Shown: positions 6,852 through 18,214 of the stretch, in pieces
How positions within the stretch are numbered: position 1 is the first letter of the stretch
Layout of the letters: every line of letters starts with the position of its first letter
IMG/VR virus record: IMGVR_UViG_3300037502_003806
Span: 1-24,030 of that record
Origin: a virus
DNA: 24,030 nucleotides
Strand: one strand, 5' to 3'
Notes under the pieces: generated by a model
Seen by the model: only the letters and a program-made list of their open reading frames with translations
What the model was told of the DNA's origin: nothing
Databases searched by the model: none
Program-made: the position numbers and the translations under genes

Positions 6852-8075
6852 TTATCCCTCCTCATATTTTTCTGTCCAAGCACCAGCCTTTGACATATCT
6901 ACAAAGTTCCCGTTCACCAAATATTTGTCTCCGCCTTGTTCATCCGGAATTAAATTCATTTCTTCTAGTTCACGGATGTCATTAGCAGACATGACACCAT
7001 TTTGTCGCATGATTTGATAAAACTGAGCTCTTGAACCGGCATCTCCCCGAAGGCGACCATTAAGGTTGAACTTAATGAAGTACTCGCTCTTTTCTGATTC
7101 ACTCAACAATGCTTTCTTCATTGACTGCTCAATTCTCGTTACCCAAGGCATAATCGTATTATCAATAAAGCTAATAGATTGATGTTCGATATTACTAAAG
7201 GTAGCTTTATCAAGGTTTGCAACAAGGTGAGGTGGAACTCTAAAAATCCGACAAATCTCTTCCGTTTGGAACTTTCTCGTTTCAAGAAACTGAGCTTGTT
7301 CCGGCGGAATGCCTATACTCTGGAACTTCATTCCTTCTTCAAGGACGGCAATTCGGTGGGCATTCCCGCTTCCTTGATATACTGCATTCCAGCTCTCTCT
7401 TATCTTTGCAGGGTCTTTTACAACGCCCGGATGTTCTAACACCCCACCGGGATTGGCCCCGTTAGCGAAAAACTTAGCACCGTATTCTTCAGTGGCTAGT
7501 GCCATTCCAATGGCATTCTTGGCCATAGCAATTGGTGAATAACCCACAAGACCATCAAAACCTAGTCCTGGGATATGAAGAACCTCATCACTTCTAAGAA
7601 TGACTGTCCCGCTGTCCTTTAGGTATTTATAATAAAGCTCACCTGTTGAAGTTCGGTCCACCGTCATTTTGTCAGGAAGTAAGGGATAAAGAGAAAGCAC
7701 ATTTGCTCTACCATCCCTGATGATTTGAACATAGGCATTTCCCCATAATAAAAGATGACTCATCAGTGTTTCCCTAAACACAAACGAAGTCATCTCGGAG
7801 TTTGGCTCATCATGGAGCATATTATATAAACTGTGTTCCAGTGCTTTTTCTTTACCGTTAGCTGTGTATTTGTATAGATGTAGTGGAAGACTTGCGATTG
7901 TTTCAGCTAATATACGAACACAAGCATACACTGCGGTCGTCTGCATAGCCGTTCTTTCATTGACGGCTTTTCCACTTGTTGTACTGCCAAAGAAAAAACT
8001 ATAGGTACTTCCTAAAAAGCTGTTCTTTGGGCTAGCTCTTGATTTAAAAAGTCCAGATAAAATTGGTATTTTCAT
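6852..8075 (-). CDS. HK97-family portal protein
   Basis: 407 residues. The portal ring is the DNA entry channel at one capsid vertex and docks the terminase. Family signatures: 'AVNERTAMQTTAVYACVRILAETIASLPLHLY' near the N-terminus, 'SLYNMLHDEPNSEMT', 'LLLWGNAYVQIIRD', 'VLHIPGLGFDGLVGYSPI', 'TEEICRIFRVPPHLV' and 'RLRGDAGSRAQFY'. AGGAAGTGAG precedes the ATG at 8075. Upstream, instead of the large terminase directly, two plus-strand genes intervene (8205-8789). Confidence 0.95.
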   Translation of the reverse strand: MKIPILSGLFKSRASPKNSFLGSTYSFFFGSTTSGKAVNERTAMQTTAVYACVRILAETIASLPLHLYKYTANGKEKALEHSLYNMLHDEPNSEMTSFVFRETLMSHLLLWGNAYVQIIRDGRANVLSLYPLLPDKMTVDRTSTGELYYKYLKDSGTVILRSDEVLHIPGLGFDGLVGYSPIAMAKNAIGMALATEEYGAKFFANGANPGGVLEHPGVVKDPAKIRESWNAVYQGSGNAHRIAVLEEGMKFQSIGIPPEQAQFLETRKFQTEEICRIFRVPPHLVANLDKATFSNIEHQSISFIDNTIMPWVTRIEQSMKKALLSESEKSEYFIKFNLNGRLRGDAGSRAQFYQIMRQNGVMSANDIRELEEMNLIPDEQGGDKYLVNGNFVDMSKAGAWTEKYEEG

Positions 8076-8204
8076 GTTCTCACTTCCTATCGAACAAAAT
8101 TGGTGACTTTTTCAATCATTCTTTAAATAGTTAAAAACTAAATTACAGATATAAATTTAAAACTAAAGCATATATTGTACAAACAAAAATAGGGGTTTAT
8201 AAAC

Positions 8205-8528
8205 GTGAATGTATATTACGATGGTGAATGGATTAAGTGTGAACCTCTTCTTCAAGAAGACTATGAGATTAAAGAAATACTAAGCATAATGTCTAAAATA
8301 GACGATAAGGATGAGCAATTGAATTTAAGAGAAATTGGTCAAAGTTTATTTCATTTAGCAGCTAGTCCTTCGCGTCTACATGGTATGGGTTCAATACAAA
8401 TTCAGGCATTAGCTAATCTAGGATATGTCTTATTTACGACTGATGAGAAATCTATATCACGAAGACACTTATACGAAAAAGTCTTTTTAGCATTCTTTAT
8501 TCCACAAACAAAAAGTAAAAATGCTTAA
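8205..8528 (+). CDS. Hypothetical moron protein between portal and terminase
   Basis: 107 residues, not recognised. The start is GTG at 8205 with AGGGG about nine bases upstream. The protein is acidic at the N-terminus ('YYDGEWIKCEPLLQEDYEIKEILSIMSKIDDKDEQLNLREIGQSLF') with a helical middle and a basic tail; no signal peptide or membrane segment is evident. It runs opposite to the flanking late genes in a strongly AT-rich island and shares that orientation with the next gene, which ends at a hairpin terminator. That is the typical build of a moron: an independently expressed accessory gene carried by the prophage. The upstream 120 bases are AT-rich and may hold its promoter, but I could not settle a -35/-10 pair. 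Confidence 0.65.
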   Translation: MNVYYDGEWIKCEPLLQEDYEIKEILSIMSKIDDKDEQLNLREIGQSLFHLAASPSRLHGMGSIQIQALANLGYVLFTTDEKSISRRHLYEKVFLAFFIPQTKSKNA

Positions 8529-8588
8529 ATGATAACCACCTTCGTTTGATTAAACATTGTCTAAATTTTTTGCATAGGAGTGATTATA

Positions 8589-8789
8589 ATGGATTCTGAT
8601 AAAAAATTAGCAATAGAGTTAACAAAAGCATTATTACAAAACAGCAATGTCAAACCGGTATTTAATCATAACGGTCGAGACGATGATTCTAATAGTATTG
8701 CTTACATATTAGGAGATACTAAATATACCTTTAGCGATATAACTTCTCACTTTTTAGATAATATAAAGAGAATTAATGAATGGGACTAA
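8589..8789 (+). CDS. Small hypothetical moron protein
   Basis: 66 residues (MDSDKKLAIELTKALLQ...INEWD), not recognised; acidic, no membrane segment. I chose ATG 8589 because AGGAG lies eight bases upstream; a GTG at 8580 in the same frame overlaps that site. It follows the 107-residue gene by 60 bases on the same strand, and its stop codon is the first part of a hairpin terminator, so the two probably form one short transcript independent of the late operon. Confidence 0.6.
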   Translation: MDSDKKLAIELTKALLQNSNVKPVFNHNGRDDDSNSIAYILGDTKYTFSDITSHFLDNIKRINEWD

Positions 8790-8812
8790 AGAGCGAAAAA
8801 GCTCTTTTTTCA
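8788..8812 (+). terminator. Rho-independent terminator after the moron pair
   Basis: AAAGAGC (8788-8794) pairs with GCTCTTT (8801-8807) around a six-base loop and continues into T's to 8810. The stem includes the stop codon of the preceding plus-strand gene. It closes the moron unit and keeps its transcript from running antisense into the terminase gene. Confidence 0.75.
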
Positions 8813-8850
8813 TTTTAAGAATTCTTCTATCATTACAGTAACTAATTAAC

Positions 8851-10395
8851 TCAGAGAATTAAAATCCCCCTACCATCATAAACACTCTCTCTATTTTCAT
8901 TTCGAATCGCTCGATCCAACGCCATAATCATTGCTACAGCACCATCAATTCGCTCTGTACTTTTTTCTTTATCAGGCTTTATGTTTCCAGCAGGGTCGGT
9001 TTTGACGAAGATGTTGTCCATCATCCACCTTAAAACTGGATTCCCACCGTGAACAATCCTTTTCTCAAGGGTTATTTTCATTAATTCCTTTGATGCTGGC
9101 GACATGTCTTTGTAGCCTTGTCCAAAAGGAACAACAGAAAACCCCATTCCTTCTAGGTTCTGTACCATTTGTACCGCCCCCCATCGGTCAAAGGCTATTT
9201 CTTTAATGTTATACTTCATTCCTAGCTCTTCGATAAATTTCTCAATAAATCCATAATGAACTACGTTTCCTTCAGTGGTTTTGATATAACCTTGTTTCTC
9301 CCAGATGTCATATGGAACATGGTCTCGTCGAACCCTCACTTTTAAGTTATCATCAGGGATCCAAAAGTAAGGGAGAACAATAAACTTCTCATCATCAGTC
9401 TTTGGTGGAAAAACAAGTACAAAAGCTGTAATATCCGTTGTACTAGAAAGGTCTAAGCCACCAAAACACTCTCTACCACGGAGCAAGTCCATATCGACCG
9501 GTTCATCGCAAGCGTCCCATTTCTCCATTTGCATCCAACGAGTCGATTGCTTCACCCATTGATTTAGCCTCAGCTGTCTGAATATATTCTCTTCAGCAGG
9601 ATTTTCTTTTGCACTTAGATACGCATTTCTCACTTTTTCTATGTCAATGGTATGGCCAAGAGAAGGATTGGCTTTATACCAGTTTTTTTCGTCAGTCCAG
9701 TCATCGTCATTATCTATTCCGTAAATAGCAGGATAAAAAGTAGGGTCAATTTTTCTCCCGTCCAAAAGATCGACTGCTTTTTGATGTACTTCATAACAAA
9801 TTGAGTTTCGGTCTGTACCAGCTGTAGTAATTAAAAAGAACAAGGGTTGCAAGCGAGCATCACCAGACCCCTTTGTCATAACATCGAATAAATCTCGGTT
9901 CGGTTGAGCATGCAGCTCATCAAAAACAACAGCATGGACATTCAGACCATGTTTCGTGTACGCTTCAGCGGAAAGAACCTGATAGAAACTATTCGTAGGT
10001 TTATAGACTAATCGTTTCATCGACATAACCGGTTTAAATCGTTTTTTCAAAGCTGGTGACTGTTCCACCATCTCAACAGCAACATCAAAAACAATGGAAG
10101 CCTGTTGTCTATCAGAGGCACAACCATAAACTTCAGCTCCCCACTCCCCATCACCACAGGTCATTAATAATGCAAGAGCCGCAGCCAGCTCACTCTTCCC
10201 ATTCTTTTTTGGAATCTCAACGTAAGCTGTATTATATTGCCGATATCCATTTTCTTTTACTGTTCCGAAAATGTCCCTCACAATTTGGTCTTGCCAAGGC
10301 AAAAGGTCAAAAGGAACCCCACGCCACTGCCCTTTCGTATGCTTTAAGCAGTTGATAAAGTTGACCGCATGCTGTGCTTTTTTCTCATCATACAC
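8851..10395 (-). CDS. Terminase large subunit
   Basis: The ATP-driven packaging motor and nuclease. With the chosen start the protein is 514 residues. Walker A is 'IPKKNGKSE' near residues 61-69, Walker B 'VVFDELH' near 156-162, and the nuclease part starts with 'GGLDLSSTTD' (Asp about 315), all typical of the Terminase_1 family that goes with P27-type small subunits. The frame is open 24 codons further up to an ATG at 10467, but that extension overlaps the small subunit gene and lacks family similarity. GTG 10395 has AGGTGGGGG upstream and gives an eight-base overlap with the small subunit stop, so I prefer it; GTG 10404 is an alternative. Confidence 0.93.
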   Translation of the reverse strand: MYDEKKAQHAVNFINCLKHTKGQWRGVPFDLLPWQDQIVRDIFGTVKENGYRQYNTAYVEIPKKNGKSELAAALALLMTCGDGEWGAEVYGCASDRQQASIVFDVAVEMVEQSPALKKRFKPVMSMKRLVYKPTNSFYQVLSAEAYTKHGLNVHAVVFDELHAQPNRDLFDVMTKGSGDARLQPLFFLITTAGTDRNSICYEVHQKAVDLLDGRKIDPTFYPAIYGIDNDDDWTDEKNWYKANPSLGHTIDIEKVRNAYLSAKENPAEENIFRQLRLNQWVKQSTRWMQMEKWDACDEPVDMDLLRGRECFGGLDLSSTTDITAFVLVFPPKTDDEKFIVLPYFWIPDDNLKVRVRRDHVPYDIWEKQGYIKTTEGNVVHYGFIEKFIEELGMKYNIKEIAFDRWGAVQMVQNLEGMGFSVVPFGQGYKDMSPASKELMKITLEKRIVHGGNPVLRWMMDNIFVKTDPAGNIKPDKEKSTERIDGAVAMIMALDRAIRNENRESVYDGRGILIL

Positions 10396-10873
10396 CCTTA
10401 CCACCCCCACCTTGAAAGAGCATAAACTCCATTGGATCATTCGCATCCGTTGGTTTGTCCGCCACAATTCTACTTCTCGATGAAGGAGTTAACCCAAACT
10501 GCTCACAGAAACGATTCATGATTTTGAGATAGCTCTGAGCGATGGACACCTGTGGCACCTGTTGCCAGTATCCTGAAGGGGTTTTTACAATCGTTCCATG
10601 CTTCGTAATAAACTCTTCAGCCTCTTTCCACCTTGCATACGCTTGACAGTATCCCGCAAAGGCTGCCATATCTACTTCTGTTAATATTCCTAGCTGCTCC
10701 AATTGCTTCACCATTCTTCGCCACTCTTTTTTAGCTTCAGGTTCTAACCAAGCTGGACATCTAGGGGCTTTCTTATCCGGTTTTGGTTCATTTTGATTAA
10801 GGTCTCTCTTTCCAGGGTTACCTTCTAATGCTTTAATCGCTGTTGGTTTAGGTTTCCTTCCACGTTGGGCCAC
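10388..10873 (-). CDS. Terminase small subunit, P27 family
   Basis: 161 residues. This subunit recognises phage DNA for packaging. The N-terminus 'RGRKPKPTAIKALEGNPGKR' and 'PRCPAWLEPEAKKEWRRM' followed by 'LGILTEVDMAAFAGYCQAYARWKEAEEFI' are hallmark P27 sequences. The longest frame starts at a GTG (10882) that lies inside the AAAGGAGGTG ribosome site itself; the next GTG at 10873 is eight bases past AAAGGAGG and gives MAQRGRKPKPT, so I use it. Overlaps the large subunit start. Confidence 0.92.
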   Translation of the reverse strand: MAQRGRKPKPTAIKALEGNPGKRDLNQNEPKPDKKAPRCPAWLEPEAKKEWRRMVKQLEQLGILTEVDMAAFAGYCQAYARWKEAEEFITKHGTIVKTPSGYWQQVPQVSIAQSYLKIMNRFCEQFGLTPSSRSRIVADKPTDANDPMEFMLFQGGGGKGV

Positions 10874-12869: not shown

Positions 12870-13598
12870 TTACTGTAGTAATTCCCCATCATTCAAAATT
12901 TGGGATGGTATGCCATCTTTGGAATAGCTAATCTTCCAAGGGCTTTTATTGTTATAAACAGAAACAGCCGCCTTATCAAAATGGCGACTGCACTTATCAT
13001 ATACAAGTTTTTTAATCCATAAGGGAGCATCTGGTACATCGTTAAGCCTTCCAAATTCTCCAAACATTAGCCTTATTCCTTCATTTCGAGCCTGAACAGC
13101 CTCTACAAAATCATGAAAATATCCTAAATGAATATCATACTGAGAAACTTTTATTCTAGCTCTATACTTTCCTCTTGCAGCATAAAAACTTACACCAGTA
13201 ACCCCAGATGTATTATTTATTTGCAGCGGTTGATTGCATTGATTTTGCTGATGTGTGCAAATCCGTAAATTACTGCGACAATTATTCAAGGGATTAAGAT
13301 CAATATGATCTACTTCATACCCTTTAGGAGGATTAAGAAGAAACTGGTGAAGTTGTTGCCCTTTACAATCCAAAACATAAATAGCTCCTTCTGACCCCGT
13401 TCTTTTATTCGGATACCATGTCTTCGAACTTACTCTTTTATAATCTGCAACATCAAATATAAATTCAAGTCCTCCTGAAAGAGTTCCTACTATGGTTTTT
13501 CCATCTTTAAGGGAACGATATTTATTCTTGCCTTGTTTTTTCTGTAAATGTGTTTCTACATTTTTCAAATCTCTAGAATGTTCAAGGATTGTCTGCAA
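12870..13598 (-). CDS. HNH homing endonuclease with AP2 DNA-binding domain
   Basis: 242 residues. Residues about 84-120 form an HNH nuclease core ('YEVDHIDLNPLNNCRSNLRI', with Asp97-His98 and Asn residues at 106 and 110). Residues about 130-175 form an AP2-like domain ('SGVTGVSFYAARGKYRARI' and 'YFHDFVEAVQARNEG'). This pairing is typical of freestanding homing endonucleases of phages, which cut a specific site in relatives lacking the gene. The start is TTG at 13598, six bases after GGAGGAG. It sits between the methyltransferase and small phage genes and looks like an insertion in the string. Confidence 0.85.
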   Translation of the reverse strand: MQTILEHSRDLKNVETHLQKKQGKNKYRSLKDGKTIVGTLSGGLEFIFDVADYKRVSSKTWYPNKRTGSEGAIYVLDCKGQQLHQFLLNPPKGYEVDHIDLNPLNNCRSNLRICTHQQNQCNQPLQINNTSGVTGVSFYAARGKYRARIKVSQYDIHLGYFHDFVEAVQARNEGIRLMFGEFGRLNDVPDAPLWIKKLVYDKCSRHFDKAAVSVYNNKSPWKISYSKDGIPSQILNDGELLQ

Positions 13599-16254: not shown

Positions 16255-16620
16255 ATGAATACCCCAATAATGAAAGAAGCTTATTCAATGCTGTATGAAA
16301 TGGAAAATCATCTACGTTTAATTGTAAAAACAAACATGGAAAAAAAGTATGGGTACAGGTGGGTTTCCATCCTATATGAAAGACGAGACGAACAAACTTC
16401 ATATTTCCACGAACTTGTCGCCTTCTTTGGAAAATACCCTCACATTCTGACCCATTTTAAACCAGAACAGTTAACTTTGCTTCGGCAACTAACCCCAATA
16501 AGAAACAAAATAGCCCATTCTCATTTAATAACTGAAACTGAATATGAACTACTAGAAAAATGCTATAAGATTGTAATTAAACAACCGATTACTAAACGAA
16601 GAAAACTTATAAAAGTTTGA
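16255..16620 (+). CDS. HEPN-domain protein (possible Abi-like or toxin RNase)
   Basis: 121 residues, mostly helical. 'RNKIAHSH' at residues 83-90 is the R-x4-H motif that marks HEPN ribonuclease domains; the N-terminal 'YSMLYEMENHLRLIV' resembles the first helix of Swt1/Abi-like HEPN proteins. HEPN proteins act in toxin-antitoxin, abortive infection and other RNA-cutting systems. It stands alone on the plus strand with its own promoter between the early and late operons, convergent to the early operon, so it is likely a lysogenically expressed accessory gene. No partner antitoxin gene is seen next to it. A strong AAAGGAG site precedes the ATG. Confidence 0.7.
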   Translation: MNTPIMKEAYSMLYEMENHLRLIVKTNMEKKYGYRWVSILYERRDEQTSYFHELVAFFGKYPHILTHFKPEQLTLLRQLTPIRNKIAHSHLITETEYELLEKCYKIVIKQPITKRRKLIKV

Positions 16621-16727: not shown

Positions 16728-17594
16728 TTATGCAGCTGATTGGCTGGATTGAGTTCGGTATTCAACTGGACTCATTCCAGCTAATTTTTCTTTTGATCGT
16801 TCATGGTTGTACCAGTAGATATAGTTTTCAATTCGACTTTTTAACTCTTCATAACTCACCAATTCTTCCCCATAATACATTTCTTGCTTTAAAATCCCAA
16901 AGAAGTTCTCCATTGAAGCGTTATCTGCGCAGGTTGCTTTGCGTGACATGCTTTGAAATATTTTATTTTCTTTCAACAACATTCCCCATTTCTTGTGCTG
17001 ATAATGCCAGCCTTGGTCGGAATGGATGGTAGTTCGATAGGTTGCATGATTCTTTATTATTTCTATAGTTTCATTTAAAGGTTCCATAACAAGATCTAAC
17101 GTTGGACGTTTCTCTATTCCATACGCAATAATTTCTCCGTTATAAAGATCAAAAAATGGATTTAAATATAATTTTTCTTCGCCAAGACACTTGAATTCTG
17201 TAATGTCCGTTACTACTTTTTGAAGAGGGATAGATGTACTAAAACGGCGAGATAATCGATTTTTCACTACCTTTCCAATAGTTCCTTTATAGGAATTATA
17301 TTTACGAGATTTACGCATAAATTTCACACATTTTAACCCTAGCTCTCCCATAATGCGGTAGACTTTTTTATGATTGATGTGCCGTCCTAATTTCGTTAAT
17401 TCCCTCGTGATACGTTTATAACCATAGCGTTCATGAAACTTTTTAAATAGGTGTGTAATGAGTTCTTTTAATTCTGTATCTGGATCTTCTTTGCCAAAAT
17501 TTTTCACATGATAGTGATAGGTTGCTTCGGGAATTCCCACAACAAAGAAAATATCTTTTAATCGATATCCTTCTTCTTTAAGTTCGAATGCCAT
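16728..17594 (-). CDS. IS3-family transposase OrfB (DDE integrase)
   Basis: 288 residues. After a helical N-terminus with the HTH_21 segment ('HERYGYKRITRELTKLG', residues 54-70) comes the rve integrase core: Asp130 in 'VVTDITEF', Asp193 in 'IHSDQG' and Glu229 in 'NASMENFFG', with 35 residues between the last two, the DD35E spacing. The C-terminus 'YNHERSKEKLAGMSPVEYR' is standard. The frame is -1 relative to OrfA and overlaps it by 37 bases. There is an ATG but no ribosome site, so OrfB is probably made as an OrfAB frameshift fusion or by coupling; I see no perfect A6G heptamer in the overlap, only AAG runs. Confidence 0.93.
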   Translation of the reverse strand: MAFELKEEGYRLKDIFFVVGIPEATYHYHVKNFGKEDPDTELKELITHLFKKFHERYGYKRITRELTKLGRHINHKKVYRIMGELGLKCVKFMRKSRKYNSYKGTIGKVVKNRLSRRFSTSIPLQKVVTDITEFKCLGEEKLYLNPFFDLYNGEIIAYGIEKRPTLDLVMEPLNETIEIIKNHATYRTTIHSDQGWHYQHKKWGMLLKENKIFQSMSRKATCADNASMENFFGILKQEMYYGEELVSYEELKSRIENYIYWYNHERSKEKLAGMSPVEYRTQSSQSAA

Positions 17595-18121
17595 CTTTGT
17601 TTGTGCTTTTCGTGAAAGGCGTTCGGATTCTCGCGAAAAGCTTTCAGCTTTTTTAAATACGCATTCTCCAGTCTTAGTAGTTCATTCTCACGTTCTAATA
17701 CTTCTTCTCGTGTTAACTGTTTTTCTTCCTTTTTCTTCTGTTTAGTAGGTTTCTTAGACATTGAAGGCCGCCCCTTTGATTTTAGTTTTAGGCCTTCTAC
17801 TCCTTGTTCACGATATGTCTTCATCCAGCGTTTAATTAAGGAAGGGTTGTTCAAATTAAATTGAACAGCAGTTTCTAAATAAGAAGCACCTGTATTTAAG
17901 ATAAATTGTATCGTATCTAATTTAAATTGAACAGAATACTCCTCTTTAGATTTTTTTCGTTTTAAGCCTTCCATTCCCTGAGATTTATAGGTATTCACCC
18001 ATTCAACAATTGGAGTGTGGCTACCCATATCATATTTTTTTGCCAATGACCCATATCCAAGATTTCCATATAGATACTCGGTGACAAGCTTTATTTTAAA
18101 TTCTTCACTATATTTGGCCAT
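17558..18121 (-). CDS. IS3-family transposase OrfA (HTH protein)
   Basis: 187 residues from ATG 18121 (MAKYSEEFKIKLVTEYL). Two helix-turn-helix repeats ('GSLAKKYDMGSHTPIVEWVNTYKSQG' and 'YLETAVQFNLNNPSLIKRWMKTYREQG') bind the IS ends, a Lys-rich linker follows, and a Leu/Glu-rich 'REEVLERENELLRLENAYLKKL' makes the dimerising zipper. The frame is open upstream to an ATG at 18193, but that lies outside the element. The GGGGGTG ribosome site of ATG 18121 falls in one arm of a 15-bp hairpin at 18128-18167. Confidence 0.9.
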   Translation of the reverse strand: MAKYSEEFKIKLVTEYLYGNLGYGSLAKKYDMGSHTPIVEWVNTYKSQGMEGLKRKKSKEEYSVQFKLDTIQFILNTGASYLETAVQFNLNNPSLIKRWMKTYREQGVEGLKLKSKGRPSMSKKPTKQKKKEEKQLTREEVLERENELLRLENAYLKKLKAFRENPNAFHEKHKQRWHSNLKKKDID

Positions 18122-18127
18122 AAAAAC

Positions 18128-18167
18128 ACCCCCGAAAGTTAGTTTTTTCACTCTAACTTTCGGGGGT
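18128..18167 (-). promoter_or_regulatory. 15-bp perfect hairpin over the OrfA ribosome site
   Basis: ACCCCCGAAAGTTAG at 18128-18142 is exactly repeated inverted as CTAACTTTCGGGGGT at 18153-18167, with a ten-base loop. In an mRNA entering the element from outside, the arm next to the gene (containing GGGGGT, the only ribosome site for OrfA) would be paired. The outer arm overlaps the terminal inverted repeat, so transcripts starting inside the element would lack it. Confidence 0.75.
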
Positions 18168-18174
18168 CGGTACC

Positions 18175-18191
18175 ATGCCTTACGTTTTTTC
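18175..18191. terminator. Right arm of the bidirectional terminator split by the IS
   Basis: ATGCCTTACGTTTTTTC at 18175-18191 is the partner of the arm at 16668-16684. It directly follows (on the minus strand) the stop of the regulator gene at 18215. Confidence 0.7.
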
Positions 18192-18214
18192 ACAATTCCT
18201 TACACGAGTTATAC

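Follow-up and report, generated by a model that had tools for sequence, protein, structure and literature searches.

The DNA analysed here, called the window below, is a viral stretch of 24,030 nucleotides (IMG/VR record IMGVR_UViG_3300037502_003806, positions 1 to 24,030) whose late genes lie on the minus strand. Two of these, encoding the portal protein and the large terminase (TerL), bracket a 775-bp AT-rich island that carries two plus-strand open reading frames (ORFs), designated P1 and P2. The locus is made up of the following features.

6852-8075, minus strand: portal gene, flank (phrog_12, E 5e-145)
8076-8850, no strand assigned: cargo island, from TerL stop to portal start; empty (21-44 bp) in close relatives
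8191-8195, plus strand: AGGGG, probable Shine-Dalgarno of P1, read from the sequence
8205-8528, plus strand: P1, 107-aa orphan with a GTG start (ORF, coding test)
8576-8580, plus strand: AGGAG, probable Shine-Dalgarno of P2, read from the sequence
8589-8789, plus strand: P2, 66 aa with an ATG start, member of a small Bacilli/phage family (ORF, homologues)
8788-8807, plus strand: intrinsic terminator overlapping the P2 stop codon, with a 7-bp stem and a T-rich tail to about 8815
8851-10467, minus strand: large terminase gene TerL, flank (phrog_9, E 5e-195)

The G+C content of the island is about 29-30%, compared with about 40-45% across most of the structural module. When sequence of island composition was resampled by a Markov model, one ORF of 107 aa or more together with another of 66 aa or more arose at a frequency of 0.0002, and the annotated frames of P1 and P2 are the only ones within the island to score as coding. 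The original prediction of an AT-rich island with two genes of opposite direction, each with its own ribosome site, is borne out by these data, and the reality of the genes is further supported by purifying selection on P2 (see below). The terminator that the two were said to share stands as a structure, in that a single terminator-like hairpin follows P2 (0.5 expected in shuffles, folding z -4.1); no terminator was found between P1 and P2, and its use by both genes is thus presumed. Searches of the island for a known RNA family and of the plus strand upstream of P1 for a sigma-70 consensus promoter gave no match. A hairpin masking the P2 Shine-Dalgarno was also considered and rejected: one homologous locus (L275) has a strong one, but the window has none, and the homologues taken together show no significant signal.

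An antisense position relative to prophage lytic genes has been described as a hallmark of moron loci (PMC7067206). The P1-P2 unit shares with such loci, for example those of Salmonella prophages, its orientation opposite to the late genes, a base composition unlike that of the rest of the phage and absence at this junction in close relatives (PMC7067206); its G+C content is about 29% against about 41%, and it carries its own terminator. It differs in that both its promoter and its expression are predicted. Elsewhere in the window, a second lone plus-strand ORF (16255-16620, 121 aa), with a sub-threshold match to HEPN_Swt1 (E 4e-4), occupies an AT-rich region next to an IS3-like transposase pair (16728-18193, minus strand) and is possibly another accessory gene. 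An HNH-type homing endonuclease-like protein (PF13392) is encoded at 12870-13598 on the minus strand, also in an AT-rich stretch, and its gene adjoins a DNA methyltransferase-like gene.

The TerL of the window is 97-98% identical to those of prophages in Anaerobacillus alkalilacustris, Halalkalibacter okhensis and Alkalihalobacillus bogoriensis, which points to an alkaliphilic member of the Bacillaceae as the probable host. The same head module is found at lower identity in phages of Clostridia, Lachnospiraceae and Streptococcus, including Ca. Heliusvirales gut phages. The TerL-portal gap was compared across all retrieved relatives that allowed both genes to be located. With the window included, this gave 155 distinct gaps, 33 of them shorter than 160 bp and 119 of at least 300 bp; distinct here means not identical, and some gaps are near-identical, so that the loci are not all independent. 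Counting ORFs from 75 aa upward, the gaps hold 188 cargo ORFs in 130 families, and the median cargo is 1.1 kb. Relatives with 97-98% identical TerL carry unrelated cargo. Empty sites of 21-44 bp (L014, L015, L018, L173, L177) occur in some phages with 91-94% identical TerL, and there hardly anything separates the end of TerL from the Shine-Dalgarno of portal. The comparison between related prophages that had been proposed as a check returned varied other cargo, or nearly nothing, at the same spot. It also shifts the original emphasis on portal and TerL as normally adjacent genes: in this phage group the junction is filled in most distinct loci, so that P1 and P2 occupy a site where cargo recurs and not an anomalous one.

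In 92 gaps the cargo shares the strand of TerL; in 15 it is, as in the window, entirely on the other strand. A terminator-like hairpin on the TerL strand stands just before the portal gene in 52 of the 119 cargo gaps, against 0.6 expected from shuffles, which indicates that many cargo units are closed transcription units. In five loci (L010, L011, L012, L174, L175), the cargo-closing terminators are alike (GCATCT...AGGTGCTTTTTTTATGC) despite unrelated cargo and sit in the last 60 or so bases before portal. On the basis of this likeness, the edge between terminator and portal may be a point of homologous recombination at which cargo is exchanged.

Among the three nearest relatives, one locus (L010) encodes a protein that combines RNase H and RnlA domains and, after it, RnlB, another (L011) a HEPN protein and DUF1643, and the third (L035) four unknown genes; DarT/DarG is found where TerL is 93% identical (L013). 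Across the gaps, cargo matches, among others, PADLOC and Pfam models for AbiD/Abi_2, AbiQ/ToxN, AbiU2, LmuB and SoFic, and further for PD-Lambda-2_B, PDC-M03/S15/S29, Doc, ParE and PemK. The site is called defence-rich on the strength of this list of matched models. Cargo identified on the opposite strand includes ToxN, PemK/MazF and a DUF3800 protein; ToxN, a type III toxin, lies at L193:8603-9166 and the PemK/MazF-like toxin at L061:7878-8435, both on the minus strand. In E. coli, RNase HI acts with RnlA/RnlB. An RNase H1-type N-terminal region is fused to RnlA in three loci (L010:3987-5861, L016:7848-9566, L017:7851-9560; the region was scanned in L010 and L017), and each fusion is followed by a 121-aa gene, which is RnlB in L010. 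The presence of defence and toxin-antitoxin genes at the same position in relatives agrees with the original view of P1 and P2 as accessory moron cargo antisense to the late operon.

Similar arrangements have been described elsewhere. Anti-phage hotspots are known in P2-like phages, P4-like satellites, K139-like Vibrio phages and a Bacillus prophage, where they lie near cos, between cI and integrase, or at a regulator-peptidase position beside integrase (Rousset et al. 2022; PMC9122126). Like them, the TerL-portal site is a short stretch bounded on each side by a conserved phage gene, and its cargo turns over heavily and in some members includes known defence systems (DarTG, RnlAB, Abi, SoFic, LmuB and others); it differs from those hotspots in lying within the late operon of Bacillota HK97-type siphophages. 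In Ca. Heliusvirales (PV036453, PV036437 and others) and in the Streptococcus suis phages phi-SsuFJNP8_rum and YS387, which have the TerL-portal module at about 66-73% DNA identity, many members carry cargo in the gap (toxin-antitoxin genes of Phd/Doc and RelE/ParE type, and unknown genes), mostly on the TerL strand and unrelated to P1 and P2. Antisense morons (PMC7067206) and prophage defence hotspots (PMC9122126) are thus known kinds. No description of a TerL-portal hotspot was found in the literature searched, of which coverage was partial, leaving its absence unproven.

Fourteen other loci hold a P2 homologue; they come from 12 Bacilli genomes and a pair of viral contigs (73% identity). 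Sequence identity together with a dN/dS of about 0.05-0.26 shows the family to be a protein under purifying selection. A strong Shine-Dalgarno site precedes most copies, which also end in a terminator beginning at the stop codon. One copy has decayed, with three in-frame stops, and several homologues are chromosomal in bacteria, with no phage or defence gene recognisable nearby; together, the decayed copy and the lone chromosomal copies indicate that P2 is dispensable. Wherever P2 is phage-borne, it runs antisense to the late genes, next to a tail gene (L275/L276), next to holin and amidase genes (L297), or flanked by a small tail-region gene and a holin (L305), these neighbours being named from their translations; there, too, it recurs with a Shine-Dalgarno site and a terminator of its own. 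An AlphaFold2 model built from two sequences has an alpha-beta-beta-beta-alpha order with a mean pLDDT of 80. Its topology resembles that of dsRNA-binding domains among the top Foldseek matches, but at an E of about 1 and a Z no higher than 4.5 the match does not rise above background, and no fold was assigned.

The main rival to an anti-phage role is that P1 and P2 are non-defensive morons that modulate host physiology or lysogeny, for example as a small regulator or an inhibitor of a host enzyme, and that sit wherever a neutral insertion is tolerated. We regard this as a real possibility that falls clearly short of even. The chromosomal P2 homologues that stand alone, away from recognisable defence genes, are in its favour, as is the heliorhodopsin (PF18761, E 1.1e-95) encoded as TerL-portal cargo at L160:2387-3172 on the plus strand of viral contig IMGVR_UViG_3300036987_000418, by which it is clear that cargo at the hotspot is not all defensive. 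Against it stand the many identifiable cargo families at the site that are defence or toxin-antitoxin families, and the invariably antisense position of phage-borne P2.

It had also been proposed that the pair could form an undescribed accessory system. Two adjacent, co-directional small genes before a single terminator could be a toxin-antitoxin or two-component defence module active only when paired, and toxin-antitoxin genes (Phd/Doc, RelE/ParE type, ToxN, PemK) do occupy the same site in relatives. We consider this improbable. P1 is missing from all 14 of the other P2 loci, at odds both with the idea of a paired system and with the co-occurrence expected of type II toxin-antitoxin genes; P1 and P2 are separated by a 60-bp gap rather than overlapping; and neither matches a toxin or antitoxin family at a usable E-value, although a small new family could escape such a search. 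As had been anticipated, neither protein is recognisable: profile searches of both against Pfam, PADLOC, NCBIfam and PHROG gave sub-threshold matches only and no defence family.

P1 itself is an orphan. No homologue was found in phage, plasmid and viral-contig collections, in 261 genomes of the order holding most P2 copies or in 41 genomes of a near host's family; in all, the search took in viral, plasmid and phage sequences together with about 650 genomes of Bacilli. Its AlphaFold2 model, from a single sequence, consists of a beta-hairpin and four helices (mean pLDDT 75), and a fold search returned only generic four-helix bundles, the best with a Z of 6.8, below the stated background. Residues 5-74 weakly match the OB/PHP border of PolC in 20 of 399 Bacilli genomes (E 5e-4 to 0.01; hhalign probability 64%), the matched proteins being assigned to PolC from length and motifs. 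This match is probably due to chance, as one protein family repeated across genomes; it is not seen in the nearest hosts, and residues 19-33 of P1 are modelled as a helix where PolC presumably has a strand. That P1 is a decaying remnant or chance ORF, leaving P2 as the sole real moron, would fit its lack of homologues and the self-contained P2 found elsewhere, but is very unlikely given its coding-type base composition by codon position, with one of six frames scoring as coding, its good Shine-Dalgarno and a fold fairly confident for a lone sequence.

Altogether, the best explanation, to which we assign about an even chance, is that P1 and P2 are morons in a TerL-portal cargo hotspot of a temperate siphophage of alkaliphilic Bacillaceae and that their role is most likely anti-phage, the latter because of what fills the same spot in sister phages. 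With the late operon off in the lysogen, plus-strand transcription of P1 and P2 would start at a promoter within the AT-rich sequence preceding P1, and perhaps also at a second one ahead of P2. The transcript would end at the terminator after P2, so that the repressed late genes stay off. Upon induction, late transcription would run from TerL into portal and cross the island antisense to P1 and P2. P2, and possibly P1, would most likely guard the lysogen against other phages through attachment to a target protein of phage or host. Of this picture, the hotspot, the empty sites, the terminator after P2, the spread of P2 without P1 and the purifying selection on P2 are demonstrated, and the promoter, the expression and the anti-phage role are inferences.

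More tentatively, and with clearly less than an even chance, the TerL-portal junction may be a general, undescribed defence hotspot of temperate Bacillota siphophages, with P1 and the P2 family as two new single-gene anti-phage proteins. The place matters more than the pair, since about 120 distinct cargo loci stand at one fixed, easily found junction. Their cargo supplies candidates for anti-phage genes, many of which belong to no known family, and P2 is a compact, conserved and testable one among them. The terminators that many cargo units carry would help to explain how defence genes can reside in a late operon without mis-expression of the head genes.
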